64,000 nt of DNA from Amycolatopsis sp. NBC_01480 (GTDB lineage: Bacteria; Actinomycetota; Actinomycetes; Mycobacteriales; Pseudonocardiaceae): NCBI RefSeq assembly GCF_036227205.1, contig NZ_CP109442.1, forward strand, positions 1,674,001 through 1,738,000, written 5' to 3'. Below, piece after piece: positions 44,420 through 55,533 of the stretch; within the stretch, counting starts at the first letter, position 1, and every line of letters starts with the position of its first letter. Under the pieces are notes generated by a model. That model was not told the DNA's origin. It saw nothing but the letters and a program-made list of their open reading frames with translations, and did not search any database. Made by a program: the position numbers and the translations under genes.

Positions 44420-44719
44420 TCAGTGCGGAACGGCCTCGTTGACCAGCCGCAGCTCCGGCGCCGTCTTCGTCGGGGAGAACTCGATCACCTCGTACTGCGC
44501 GAGGTGCTGCACCGAGAACGGGTCGGTCGCCAGGATCGCGTCGAGTTTCCCCCGGGCCATCGGGCGGGTGATGATCACGCCGCCGATCCGCGGGTTCCGG
44601 CGGCCCGAAGCGAGGAAGTGCCCCTGCTCGTACTGCTTCGCGAGCCACTGCGCGTGGTCCGGCAGCACGTAGTCGATCTCCTCGATGGGCGCGGTGTAGT
44701 TGAGCAGCACGACGAACAT
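44420..44719 (-). CDS. YciI-family protein
   Basis: Small protein of 99 residues with the YCII fold pattern: FVVLLNYTAPIEEID strand-helix start, the conserved Asp21-His22 pair (VLPDHAQWL) and GHFLASGRRNPRIGGVII. These are ferredoxin-like-fold proteins; some relatives are dechlorinases or stress proteins, but most are of unknown function. ATG at 44719; TACCGT lies 5 nt upstream. Divergent from the trpS leader. Confidence 0.88.
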   Translation of the reverse strand: MFVVLLNYTAPIEEIDYVLPDHAQWLAKQYEQGHFLASGRRNPRIGGVIITRPMARGKLDAILATDPFSVQHLAQYEVIEFSPTKTAPELRLVNEAVPH

Positions 44720-44766: not shown

Positions 44767-44772
44767 TAGACT
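44767..44772 (+). promoter_or_regulatory. -10 box of the trpS attenuator transcript
   Basis: TAGACT ends 7 nt before the ATG of the leader peptide at 44780. No ribosome-binding site lies between, so the leader is probably translated from a leaderless transcript. Confidence 0.6.
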
Positions 44773-44779
44773 GTGACCC

Positions 44780-44839
44780 ATGCTCGCGCCGAACAACCAG
44801 TGGTGGCCGCCCCTCGGCGGCCCCGAAGTTCTGCGCTGA
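44780..44839 (+). CDS. Trp leader peptide (MLAPNNQWWPPLGGPEVLR)
   Basis: A 19-codon frame beginning directly at the inferred transcription start. It has two adjacent Trp codons at 44801-44806 and a TGA at 44837-44839. Trp is rare, so a Trp-Trp pair in so short a frame just before a tryptophanyl-tRNA synthetase is the hallmark of a ribosome-mediated attenuator. The Trp codons partly overlap segment 1 of the leader hairpin. Confidence 0.82.
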   Translation: MLAPNNQWWPPLGGPEVLR

Positions 44840-44880
44840 CATACCAGCGAAGGCCGCCCCGGTGGGCGGCCTTCTCGCTT
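44805..44880 (+). promoter_or_regulatory. Ribosome-mediated transcription attenuator of trpS
   Basis: Four mutually complementary 7-nt segments are visible: 1 GGCCGCC (44805-44811), 2 GGCGGCC (44816-44822), 3 GGCCGCC (44852-44858), 4 GGCGGCC (44865-44871). Pairing 1:2 plus 3:4 gives the terminator (stem 44849-44858 with 44865-44874, then TCGCTTTCT). A ribosome stalled at the Trp codons masks segment 1 and frees 2:3, the antiterminator. S. coelicolor has an auxiliary TrpRS gene controlled this way. Confidence 0.85.
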
Positions 44881-44925
44881 TCTGCGGGTCTCCTCCCGGG
44901 GCACATCCAGGGAGAGGAAAGACCC

Positions 44926-45918
44926 ATGGTCCAGCTGTCCGGCATCACCCCGTCCGGCCACACCCAGCTCGGCAACCACCTCGGCGCGATGCGCCGCTGG
45001 GCGTCCGACGGCGGGCCCGACGACCTGTACTTCGTCTCGGACCTGCACGCCATGACGACCCAGCACAACCCGGCCCGGCTCCGCTCGCTCGCGACTGAGC
45101 AGCTCGCGGTGCTGGTGGCCTCGGGCATCCCGCCGGAGCGCGTGTTCGTGCAGTCCGACATCGCGAAGGACCTGGGCGCGCTGACCTGGGTGCTCGAGTG
45201 CACCTGCGCGTACGGCGAGGCCGCGCGGATGATCCAGTTCAAGGAGAAATCGGCCCGCGGCGAGGTGGACGGCAAGCCCGGCGGCCAGGCCGGCGTCCGG
45301 CTCAGCCTGCTGACGTACCCGGTGCTGATGGCCGCCGACATCCTGTTGCAGGGCGCCGACGAGGTGCCCGTCGGCGAGGACCAGCGGCAGCACGTGGAGC
45401 TGGCGCGGACGCTGGCCAAGCGGTTCAACACCACGTACGGCGAAGTGTTCACCGTGCCGACGGCCGTGCTTCCCCTGACGGGCGCGCGGGTGAAGGACTT
45501 CGCCGACCCGACCCGGAAGATGTCGAAGTCCGCGCACGACTCGGCCGGGGTGGTGTTCGTGCTCGACGAGCCGGACCAGGTGCGCCGCAAGATCCGCCGC
45601 GCGCGCACCGACGGCGGTTCAGTGCCTGCGTATGCGCCGGAGACCCGGCCGGGGATCGCGAACCTGCTGGAGGTGCTCGCCGCGTGCACCGGCGGTGATC
45701 CGGCCGAGCTGGCCGACGAGTACGCGTCCTACGGCGTGCTCAAGGACGCGGTCGCCGACGCCGTGATCGAGGAGCTGCGGCCGATCCGGGAGCGCACGAA
45801 AGCGCTGCTCGGCGACGTCGCGGAGCTGGAACGGGTGCGCAAGGCCGGGGCCGCGCGGGCGGCGGACCGGGGCGCGCACCGCGTTTCGGCGGCGCTGCGG
45901 CTGATCGGCGCCGGCTGA
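44926..45918 (+). CDS. trpS: Tryptophanyl-tRNA synthetase (auxiliary, attenuator-controlled type)
   Basis: Class I synthetase of 330 residues charging tRNA-Trp. The HIGH equivalent is PSGHTQLGN (9-17), with GEDQRQH at 150-156 and KMSKS at 198-202. The sequence near the HIGH motif (SGITPSGHTQLGNHLG) resembles the actinomycete second TrpRS, whose Streptomyces form resists indolmycin; resistance here is inference. ATG at 44926 with GAGAGGAAAG upstream. Upstream lies a Trp-Trp leader and terminator. Whether a second, housekeeping trpS exists cannot be seen in this window. Confidence 0.92.
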   Translation: MVQLSGITPSGHTQLGNHLGAMRRWASDGGPDDLYFVSDLHAMTTQHNPARLRSLATEQLAVLVASGIPPERVFVQSDIAKDLGALTWVLECTCAYGEAARMIQFKEKSARGEVDGKPGGQAGVRLSLLTYPVLMAADILLQGADEVPVGEDQRQHVELARTLAKRFNTTYGEVFTVPTAVLPLTGARVKDFADPTRKMSKSAHDSAGVVFVLDEPDQVRRKIRRARTDGGSVPAYAPETRPGIANLLEVLAACTGGDPAELADEYASYGVLKDAVADAVIEELRPIRERTKALLGDVAELERVRKAGAARAADRGAHRVSAALRLIGAG

Positions 45919-52684: not shown

Positions 52685-54330
52685 TAGAACTCCCCCACCG
52701 AGCCGTGCCCGCGGACCGAGCCGAAGCGGTCGATCAGCGCGACGGCCGCCACGGTCACCACCATCAGCAGCGCGCACGCGGCGTACGCCATCTGGTTGTT
52801 CAGCTCGCCCGGCCGCCCCATCAGCGTCGCGACGGCCACTGGCAGCGTCGGCGCGTCCGGGCGGGCGAGGAAGCTCGTCGCCCCGAACTCGCCCAGCGCC
52901 ACGACAAAACCGAACCCCGCGGCCGCGACCAGCGAGCGGGCCGTGAGCGGGAAGTCGATCTCGCGCCAGACTCGCACCGGGCTCGCCCCCAGCGTCGACG
53001 CGGCTTGGCGCAGCCGGACGTCCACCGCGCGCAGCACCGGCAGCACCATCCGCACCACCAGCGGGATGATCACCAGCGCCTGCGCGAGCGGCACGAGCAT
53101 CGGCGACGTCCGCAGGTCGCCGGGCAGCGCATCGAGCGTGATGAGGTAGCCGAAGCCCACCGTCACGGCGGAGACGCCCAGCGGCAGCATCAACGCCGCG
53201 TCCATCGTCTCGCCCATGCCGCGCGCGAGCCGGCCGGGCGCGCGGCGCAGCGCGACCAGCACCACGCTGGCCAGCACACCCACGGCCATCGCGAGCAGTG
53301 TGGCGTCGGTGGCCGCGGCCAGCGAGTTCTTCGCCGCCGTCCAGCCGGAGACCTGCAACGCGTCGTTCGCGCCGTTACCGGACAGCGCGCGGTACCCGGC
53401 GAGGCTCCAGCCGTTCTCGCCGGACACCGACTCGGCCAGCAGCGCGACGATCGGGGTCATCAGCAGCGCCAGCACGACGGCGGCGGCGCCGACCGTCCAC
53501 CACTCGCCACCGCGCGGCCGGCGGGCCGTGACCAGCGCGGACCGCAGCCGGACGGCGTTCTCCCGGCGCCGCCGCGCCATAGCGCCGAGCGCCAGCGCCG
53601 CCAGCACGGCCGCGAACTGGATCAGCGACAGCGCGGCCGCGCCCGAGAGGTCCAGCAGGTCGACGGTGCGCAGGTAGATCTCGGTCTCGAGCGTGCGGTA
53701 CTGGCCGCCGCCGAGGATCAGCACCACGCCGAAACTGGTGGCGCAGAACAGAAAAACCACCGCGGCCGCGGACGCGACGGCCGGTCCGAGTGCGGGCAGC
53801 GTCACCGTGCGGAACGCCCGCCACGGCGACGCTCCGAGCGCCCTGGCCGCCTCCGTCGCGCGCGGGTCGAGGTGCGACCACAGCCCGGCGACGGTCCGCG
53901 CGACCACCGCGACGTTGAAGAACGCGTTCGCCAGCACCAGCGGCAGCACGCCGCCGTCCGGCCAGATCGCGCGGAAGGCGAGGCCGACCACCACCGTCGG
54001 CAGCACGAAGGGCACCAGCACCAGCATGCGCGCGAGCCCGACGCCGGGCAGCCGCACGCGCGCGAGCAGGTACGCGACCGGCAGGCCGGCCAGCAGGGCG
54101 ACCACCGTGGACGCCGCCGCGCTGGCCAGGGTGAACCCGGCGAGCCGCCACGTCTGCGGGTCGGCGAGCACGGTGTCGACGCCGCCCGCGGAGAAGCCGC
54201 GGCCGACGATCGCCACCACCGGCCAGGCGAAGAACACCGCCAGGAACGCCACGGGCAGCAGCCCGAGCAGCGCGAGCCCGGCCGTGCGGAGGGTGCGCGC
54301 CGGGGTCAGGCCCCCATGAGCGAGCGCCAT
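52684..54330 (-). CDS. thiP: Thiamine ABC transporter permease (ThiP-like, two fused halves)
   Basis: Permease of 548 residues with about 12 spans in two homologous halves. EAA loops are ATEAARALGASPWRAFRTV in the first half and LRQAASTLGASPVRVWREI in the second, as in ThiP/FbpB. ATG at 54330 overlaps the binding-protein gene by 25 bases; the site upstream is weak, so coupling is likely. Confidence 0.9.
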   Translation of the reverse strand: MALAHGGLTPARTLRTAGLALLGLLPVAFLAVFFAWPVVAIVGRGFSAGGVDTVLADPQTWRLAGFTLASAAASTVVALLAGLPVAYLLARVRLPGVGLARMLVLVPFVLPTVVVGLAFRAIWPDGGVLPLVLANAFFNVAVVARTVAGLWSHLDPRATEAARALGASPWRAFRTVTLPALGPAVASAAAVVFLFCATSFGVVLILGGGQYRTLETEIYLRTVDLLDLSGAAALSLIQFAAVLAALALGAMARRRRENAVRLRSALVTARRPRGGEWWTVGAAAVVLALLMTPIVALLAESVSGENGWSLAGYRALSGNGANDALQVSGWTAAKNSLAAATDATLLAMAVGVLASVVLVALRRAPGRLARGMGETMDAALMLPLGVSAVTVGFGYLITLDALPGDLRTSPMLVPLAQALVIIPLVVRMVLPVLRAVDVRLRQAASTLGASPVRVWREIDFPLTARSLVAAAGFGFVVALGEFGATSFLARPDAPTLPVAVATLMGRPGELNNQMAYAACALLMVVTVAAVALIDRFGSVRGHGSVGEF

Positions 54331-55361
54331 GCACCGATCCACTTCTCGCGGCCGGCCTGTACCTGGTCGGCGGGCAGCGTGGCCGGATTCGAGGGCAGCG
54401 GCGCCACCTGCGCCCAGCCCGCGGGCAGGTCGACGCCCTGGCGCGCCGGGTAGACGTACATGTTCGCCGGCACCGTGGTCTGGAACTGCTGGGACAGCAG
54501 GAAGTCGACCACCTTCTGCGCCTGCGGCAGGTTCTTGCTGCCGGTCAGCACGCCCGCGTACTCGACCTGGCGGTAACAGGTGTCGAGCAGGGCCTTCGTG
54601 CGCGGCTTGCCGTCCGGACCCACCTCGGCGGCGGGCGAGGAGGCGTACGAGACGACGATCGGCCGCGGCCCCTTGCCCGAAGAGCCGGAGAAGTCCTTGG
54701 TGTAGGCCTCTTCCCAGCCGCTGTCGACCTTCAGGCCGTTCGCCTTGAGCTTGGTCCAGTAGCCCTGCCAGCCCTGCTCGCCGAACTTCGCGATGGTGCC
54801 CAGCAGGAACGCCAGCCCGGGCGACGCGGTGGCCGGGTCCTCGGCGACGGTCAGGTCCTTGTACTTCGGGTCGGCCAGGTCGTCGTAGGTCTTCGGCTCC
54901 GCGAGGCCCTTGCTGGTGAAGTAGCCGGAGTCGACGTTCACGCAGACGTCGCCGAGGTCCACGGCGGAGAGCCGGTGCTCGGGGTCCACGGAGTAGCGCT
55001 GCGGCCCGCGGTCCGCCTCGGGGCTGGTGTAGGGCTGGAAGACGCCCTCGCCGAGCGCCCGGGAGGCGAACGTCGAGTCGACGCCGTACGCGACGTCGCC
55101 GATCGGGTTCGCCTTCGTGAGCACCAGCTTGTTGGTCAGCTCGCCGGCGTCGCCGTATTTGACGACCTTCAGCTTGAGCCCGGACTGGCGCTGGAACGCG
55201 TCGAGCACGTCCTGGGGCGCGACGAACGAGTCGTGCGTGACGAGCGTGACCTCGGGGGTCTGCTGGGCGCCGCCGCCCGAGCCGCCGGACAACGAGCAGG
55301 CACTCGCCAGCACGGTGACCGTGGCCACCGCCAGCGCCGAGCGTGCGGTCCGCGGATTCAT
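54306..55361 (-). CDS. thiB: Thiamine-binding periplasmic-type lipoprotein (TbpA/ThiB-like)
   Basis: Binding protein of 351 residues with lipobox LASACS. EVTLVTHDSFVAPQDVLDAF, GDAGELTNKLVLTKANPIGD, FVVSYASSPAAEV-like PIVVSYASSPAAE and PANMYVYPARQGVDLP match the TbpA family of extracellular thiamine/TPP receptors. ATG at 55361 with GGAGG about 10 nt upstream; that site can pair with CTCCTGC further upstream, so translation is likely switched by the riboswitch. Confidence 0.92.
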   Translation of the reverse strand: MNPRTARSALAVATVTVLASACSLSGGSGGGAQQTPEVTLVTHDSFVAPQDVLDAFQRQSGLKLKVVKYGDAGELTNKLVLTKANPIGDVAYGVDSTFASRALGEGVFQPYTSPEADRGPQRYSVDPEHRLSAVDLGDVCVNVDSGYFTSKGLAEPKTYDDLADPKYKDLTVAEDPATASPGLAFLLGTIAKFGEQGWQGYWTKLKANGLKVDSGWEEAYTKDFSGSSGKGPRPIVVSYASSPAAEVGPDGKPRTKALLDTCYRQVEYAGVLTGSKNLPQAQKVVDFLLSQQFQTTVPANMYVYPARQGVDLPAGWAQVAPLPSNPATLPADQVQAGREKWIGAWRSLMGA

Positions 55362-55400
55362 CTGCTGTCCTCCTGCACTGGCCGGCGGCAGGAGAACGAG

Positions 55401-55490
55401 CCTCCCTGCGCCGGCATGATCCGGATTCAGGTGCGAACGGTCGCGGGTCTACGGGCACCCGCCTCTCAGCCCGGCGTACCGGACTCCCGT
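55401..55490 (-). ncRNA. TPP riboswitch (THI element)
   Basis: Reading the minus strand from 55490: ACGGGAG, then CTGAGAGG (55469-55462), GACCCGCGACC, ACCTGAATCCGG (55432-55421), ATCATGCCGG and CGCAGGGAGG (55410-55401). These are the conserved blocks of the thiamine-pyrophosphate aptamer in order. Downstream, CTCCTGC (55394-55388) can pair with GCAGGAG (55376-55370), hiding the thiB ribosome-binding site; TPP binding would then stop translation. Confidence 0.95.
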
Positions 55491-55533
55491 GGCAACCGTG
55501 CAGCCTAGCCGAGACGGGATCACCATTGGGCAC

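Follow-up and report, generated by a model that had tools for sequence, protein, structure and literature searches.

A probable ribosome-mediated attenuator with a predicted leaderless leader peptide and a covarying start stem precedes the auxiliary trpS of Amycolatopsis sp. NBC_01480

In the window (the whole stretch of 64,000 nucleotides of Amycolatopsis sp. NBC_01480 that was analysed), positions 44767 to 44925 very probably hold a ribosome-mediated transcription attenuator of the auxiliary trpS gene, operating as set out below; the transcription start, the kinetics of the switch, its induction by uncharged tRNA-Trp or by indolmycin and a lock on the start codon are predicted features of this reading. 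In addition to four pairing segments, the leader holds a further helix, absent from the initial annotation and here called the start stem, in which the first leader codons fold onto RNA around the leader stop, 3' of segment 2. It is kept with different letters in different lineages. The helix itself (Table 1) is well supported; its function, including any locking of the start codon, is a proposal.

The predicted transcription start is the leader ATG, where a 70S ribosome would initiate on the bare 5' end, a leaderless start that would couple initiation to the first ribosome. When Trp-tRNA is short, this ribosome would wait at 44801-44806, with both segment 1 and the start stem's 5' arm under its footprint; as these are the two elements that otherwise hold segment 2, one stall would free it, and segment 2 would then capture segment 3 while segment 4 is still to be transcribed, allowing transcription to continue into trpS. 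When Trp-tRNA is plentiful, the ribosome would proceed to the stop at 44837 and cover segment 2, and 3:4 would terminate transcription. If no ribosome loads, or after the ribosome leaves, the first codons would pair with 44828-44842, 1:2 would close and 3:4 would again terminate; termination would thus be the default, with the 5' start codon buried in the ribosome-free state.

Table 1. Features of the trpS leader region, in window positions.
Feature	Position	Strand	Basis
-10-like hexamer TAGACT	44767-44772	+	read directly; TANNNT common to 80/80 genus genomes
GTGACCC, 7-nt spacer between TAGACT and leader ATG	44773-44779	+	read directly
Putative leaderless leader ORF MLAPNNQWWPPLGGPEVLR*, ATG, 19 codons, TGA	44780-44839	+	sequence, WW conservation
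Two adjacent leader Trp codons	44801-44803, 44804-44806	+	read directly
Segment 1, GGCCGCC, overlaps second Trp codon	44805-44811	+	read directly, 1:2 helix conservation
Segment 2, GGCGGCC	44816-44822	+	read directly, 1:2 and 2:3 conservation
Segment 3, GGCCGCC, terminator 5' arm	44852-44858	+	read directly, 2:3 and 3:4 conservation
Segment 4, GGCGGCC, terminator 3' arm, then tail TTCTCGCTTTCT	44865-44871	+	read directly, 3:4 conservation
Start stem 5' arm GCGCCGAAC, leader codons 3-5	44786-44794	+	predicted fold, covariation
Start stem 3' arm GTTCTGCGC, immediately 5' of leader stop	44828-44836	+	predicted fold, covariation
Start stem extension, ATG paired (predicted)	44780-44782 with 44840-44842	+	fold
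Possible SD hairpin GGGTCTCCTCCC / GGGAGAGGAAAGACCC, covers trpS Shine-Dalgarno region	44886-44925	+	predicted fold
Auxiliary-type trpS, 330 codons and stop, ATG 44926	44926-45918	+	TIGR00233, PF00579, TrpRS tree

The initial annotation had described the hexamer, the spacing, the 19-codon peptide with its adjacent Trp codons and four alternating 7-mers able to pair as 1:2 plus 3:4 or as 2:3. Direct reading bears out all of these; the segments are exact 7-mers in the window, and the pairings 1:2, 2:3 and 3:4 are all possible. A tail does follow 3:4 as described, but the tail had been quoted as TCGCTTTCT, which drops the first TTC of TTCTCGCTTTCT. The terminator hairpin is strong; its tail is U-poor in the window, which counts against the attenuator reading, and U-rich (TTTTT) in many relatives. 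The two alternative structures are also borne out by folding. The region 44780-44885 folds at -57.5 kcal/mol; dinucleotide shuffles average -41.95 (sd 3.71), and none of 200 is as good. In constrained folding with RNA made up to 44862, masking of either Trp codon by a ribosome gives a 2:3 probability of 0.93-1.0, a mask at the stop codon gives 0.008, and the ribosome-free RNA shows 1:2 at 0.999 or above and the start stem at 0.97-1.0. At equilibrium, in the full-length RNA, 3:4 outcompetes 2:3 even with a stalled ribosome; therefore the switch must act kinetically, segment 2 having to capture segment 3 at a time when segment 4 is not yet transcribed.

A T-box or Trp_leader model was considered for the leader region and rejected, the Rfam searches having returned nothing relevant: no match in the leader region reached the gathering score, and the seven sub-threshold matches there at E up to 10 included neither a T-box nor a Trp leader. 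Rfam likewise gave no match in 20 further loci (the 18 named loci without a leader described below, L155, which has one, and the second trpS of the genome).

The leader lies 5' of the auxiliary trpS in all 80 genomes of the genus (upstream regions L001 and L003-L081). The start codon is ATG in 69 and GTG in 11, six or seven codons precede the first Trp codon, and the tryptophan pair is WW in 79 leaders and WQ in one (L078, whose start was placed by hand for want of WW; the gene start of L081 was also set by hand). A TANNNT hexamer stands 6-9 nt 5' of the leader start in 80/80, against a background of 87 in 25600 upstream positions at spacings 6-8. As observations apart, a Gln codon in place of the second Trp codon occurs both in L078 and outside the genus in Lentzea albida, and some leaders stop early (WWPPSAA.., the L019-L046 group, for example L026). 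Most of these retain a CCTGCGCTGA block 3' of their stop, which thus looks to be kept at the RNA level rather than the peptide level.

The pattern of WW codons with segments 1 and 2 is found twice in the 10.1-Mb genome, and a reversed control pattern gave one forward and one reverse match in the same genome, so this motif alone is not rare. A chance open reading frame amid GC-rich repeats, with no function, would account for such a pattern; the conserved leader and TANNNT spacing in all 80 genomes disfavour it, as do the distribution over the TrpRS tree and the covariation of the start stem, and its probability is negligible.

Among 56 representatives of the genus set of 80, the 1:2 helix is paired in 99.2% of cells, 2:3 in 99.2% and 3:4 in 98.9%, so that, with the Trp codons, the segments foreseen as conserved in close relatives are indeed kept. 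The initial annotation was right that the 7-mers are exact and went too far in calling their regularity unusual, near-exact regularity being the rule in the genus and not a curiosity of one genome. As the segments are nearly invariant, they give almost no covariation: one double-change pair was found in 1:2 and none in 3:4 or 2:3.

Control might instead be mainly translational, the trpS Shine-Dalgarno sequence being held in a hairpin that the leader ribosome or the antiterminator would open. Such a hairpin is predicted in the window and in many relatives, with a mean paired fraction of 0.68 and a mean z of -1.5 over the 56 representatives, 34 of which fall below z -1; this statistic is without an outside control, and GC-rich DNA folds anyway. 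The hairpin is missing from most members of the L039-type subclade (paired about 0.4-0.5, z near 0, although two reach -2.1 and -2.2), and the terminator-like 3:4 hairpin sits upstream of it in the aligned rows. Translational control as the main mode is accordingly improbable.

A second alternative, a longer, leadered mRNA serving as template for leader translation, would find its starts in the in-frame upstream codons present in several relatives, yet the positions of these vary from one relative to another, and the spacing from TANNNT to the leader start is fixed. SD-like 4-mers occur ahead of the leader in 13/80 genomes (some of them overlapping TAGGAT-type -10 hexamers) and ahead of trpS in 80/80, and in S. 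lividans TK24 the trpL2-trpS transcript starts leaderless according to RNA-seq in the available part of its description (PMC8079986). A leadered transcript is thus very unlikely, and attenuation from a leaderless leader peptide is the reading followed from here on.

The window trpS encodes a class I TrpRS (TIGR00233 at 235.7 bits against a cut-off of 176.75; PF00579 match) and is preceded by its own Shine-Dalgarno-like GGGAGAGGAA. By this protein, the nearest named relatives are Amycolatopsis. The second trpS that an auxiliary copy would imply lies at 4.14 Mb and is 45% identical to the window copy; the trpS model scores it higher, at 349.3 versus 235.7 bits, and the 330 nt upstream of it hold no W-containing short ORF after a TANNNT hexamer. 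At least two TrpRS matches occur in every one of the 80 genomes of the genus, among them the source genome; the best match has 70-100% identity and the second about 42-48% among the matches listed. Outside the genus, Streptosporangium amethystogenes NRRL B-2639 carries two different auxiliary-type copies, on two contigs (L125, L139), each with its own leaderless Trp leader, one with WW and the other with a single W.

From at least 493 relatives in a scan of named genomes, 80 loci were retained. A W-containing leader precedes the gene in 62 of them, with TANNNT at 6-8 nt in 60 of these 62. The remaining 18 loci comprise 12 of Clostridia type, 2 from Acidimicrobiales, 3 otherwise unplaced actinobacterial ones and one verrucomicrobial MAG. 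A short-loop hairpin finder returned a terminator-like hairpin in all 54 leaders analysed outside Amycolatopsis, and pairing of segment 2 with the 5' arm of the terminator beats 95 of 100 shuffles in 42 of the 54. The wide set comprises 66 leaders (64 by script, 2 by hand); 8 of them have a single Trp codon, so the second one is dispensable. The two leaders taken by hand (L155, L161) have an upstream hexamer other than TANNNT, and the WW leader of L173 shares this trait.

In a quick, unrooted TrpRS tree of 106 rows, one branch (SH-aLRT 99) splits 67 leader-bearing from 39 rows without a leader, so that the presence of the leader requires a single change. The leader side spans many actinomycete families, named Streptomyces included, and the 4.14-Mb copy of the source genome falls on the other side. 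Two rows (L131, L179) were scored as lacking a leader, their W peptides being judged chance. Five loci are absent from the tree, their gene start not having been located by script; of these, L170-L172 have leaders with TANNNT, L173 is the WW leader mentioned above, and L168 has N upstream. Together with the conservation in the genus, this distribution supports what had been proposed from the window alone, namely a leaderless leader peptide and ribosome-mediated Trp attenuation of an auxiliary-type trpS. The range of a regulator known in Streptomyces would thereby widen to one lineage of spare TrpRS across many actinomycete families.

In S. coelicolor, indolmycin resistance is said to arise through induced expression of one of two TrpRS (work of Kitabatake, 2002), and Vecchione and Sello reportedly described in 2010 the ribosome-mediated attenuation of an auxiliary, antibiotic-resistant trpS. 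The trpL leader of E. coli belongs to a leadered mRNA with a Shine-Dalgarno site and controls biosynthesis genes, whereas here the gene is trpS. Among the likenesses, the ribosome site of the trpL leader reportedly pairs with a distal segment in older work. Also shared with E. coli trpL are the 1:2 / 2:3 / 3:4 logic, the stall at Trp codons and, in the accessible text of PMC1183508, super-attenuation when leader translation fails.

The present locus adds to a known kind, since leaderless trpS attenuators are already on record for Streptomyces in the consulted sections of PMC8079986. There, S. lividans trpL2-trpS resembles it in the auxiliary-type trpS, the leaderless Trp leader peptide and the terminator hairpins. 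The likeness extends to letters: L164, whose TrpRS falls with Streptomyces in the tree, has the leader MTTRTCTQLWWAA, to be compared with the S. lividans leader printed as MMTRTCTQLWRAA in those sections (PMC8079986). The window's group differs in its adjacent Trp codons and in a longer C-terminal part, WWPPxGGPxxLR, the S. lividans leader having one Trp codon, and the same sections of text leave a start stem unmentioned (PMC8079986). The kinship with Streptomyces rests on named Streptomyces in the tree, where neither S. coelicolor nor S. lividans figures by name, and the printed S. lividans pattern matched in 0 of 392 genomes of a genus taken as Streptomyces from the tree.

Seliverstov et al. 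(2005) predicted Trp attenuators before trp operons and before S. avermitilis trpS2, in Corynebacterium and Streptomyces, and the available part of that paper (PMC1262725) shows likenesses in the UGG repeats and, for trp operons, in the GC-rich antiterminator and terminator with gGCC-rGCy-GGCC blocks; in that part neither a leaderless start nor a start stem is mentioned. The cysteine attenuators of mycobacteria likewise use a leaderless short ORF to sense an amino acid, but are described, in the portions at hand, as regulating the translation of downstream genes (PMC9031893, PMC13236596). Within the literature searched, some of it available in part, the covarying start stem and the lock proposed for it are the portion of the present system not met in description elsewhere; the 2010 work of Vecchione and Sello may draw such a stem.

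The evidence for the start stem comes from comparing the duplex energy of each leader's own arms with that of permuted partners. A per-sequence test was chosen because the register of the stem shifts between Amycolatopsis subclades, which weakens any test on fixed columns. Within Amycolatopsis, the number of permutations out of 5000 that did as well was 0, 1, 2 and 0 at clustering levels of 56, 25, 16 and 8 representatives, respectively; outside the genus, none of 5000 was as good at 45, 30 or 11. The combined sets gave -15.17 kcal/mol native against -11.32 permuted (n=34) and -14.91 against -10.23 (n=14), again with 0/5000 as good in either. As a control, the same 5' arms paired with RNA past the terminator or with DNA 5' of the -10 hexamer gave no signal (z -0.6 to 0.9).

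In an alignment of 16 sequences from outside Amycolatopsis, 83.8% of stem cells pair (0/500 shuffles as high) and changes on both sides occur at 7 of 10 stem pairs (1/500 as high); further pair types are not above shuffles (148/500 as high). These figures are to be read knowing that the 16 were picked from 54 for an apparent shared register, that the structure came from one of them, which favours it over slid versions, and that the shuffles leave relatedness among the sequences in place. Two sequences of a first list of 17 (L117, L132) were left unaligned and L146 was added. On fixed columns, only 62.2% of start-stem cells are paired in the 56 Amycolatopsis representatives, and their whole structure has 6 double-change pairs, no better than shuffles (152/500 as high).

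The helix may serve the switch in two ways. One reading, with close to an even chance of being right, is that it merely lengthens 1:2, lowering basal read-through and causing super-attenuation when leader translation fails, any block of the start codon being incidental. It is in keeping with this that the stem encloses 1:2 and that the same stalled ribosome disrupts both; for the trp leader of E. coli, the accessible text of PMC1183508 describes both super-attenuation and a basal read-through that comes from ribosome release. In the Streptomyces trpS leaders, moreover, the stem begins at about nucleotide 8-11 and leaves the start codon free. Two observations nevertheless speak for involvement of the start codon: of 134 leaders, 106 have a best duplex beginning within nucleotides 1-4, and in the 16-sequence subset there is covariation at the first base of this codon (AU 7, GC 3, GU 2, unpaired 4). 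The start codon is predicted as paired (P >0.5) in only 31 of 80 genus leaders and 22 of 54 others.

The other reading gives the start codon a part of its own. It is proposed that the start stem re-closes the leader and favours termination when no ribosome loads, and it may hold each transcript to roughly one ribosome. More broadly, and tentatively, leaderless attenuators of actinomycetes might share a built-in start-codon lock, in which the first codons pair with RNA some 40-60 nt later, so that a 70S ribosome could load only in the brief interval before the partner is made, about one ribosome would serve each transcript, and a missed loading would lead to termination; such a lock may generally solve the lack of a 5' UTR.

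Comparable stems are predicted in eight trpE-like leaders (L196-L203, from genomes grouping with Streptomyces) of the form MFAH..(N)WWW, which resemble the printed Streptomyces trpE leader. In these, codons 2-4 pair with RNA right after the stop in 8/8 folds of 75 nt and in 6/8 of 170 nt; the eight are too alike for covariation and were recognised by their leader pattern. They came from the looser of two patterns, which matched 8 of 30, the stricter one having matched 0 of 20.

According to the consulted part of a 2022 review (PMC9031893), how leaderless translation is regulated has been poorly described, no reports were known of proteins, small RNAs or caps changing the accessibility of leaderless mRNAs, and riboswitches were considered unlikely on them except within the coding sequence. 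A working lock would control leaderless initiation from a position largely within coding sequence. The testable element added here is a covarying helix able to bury a leaderless start codon.

As to the surroundings of the attenuator, a YCII-domain gene (window 44423-44719, minus strand) is divergent from it, with 60 bp between its ATG and the leader ATG. Further downstream, a TPP riboswitch (58.6 bits) lies at 55386-55500 on the minus strand, 5' of the minus-strand ORF 54306-55361, whose translation resembles a transporter substrate-binding protein; by eye, permease- and ATPase-like ORFs come next.
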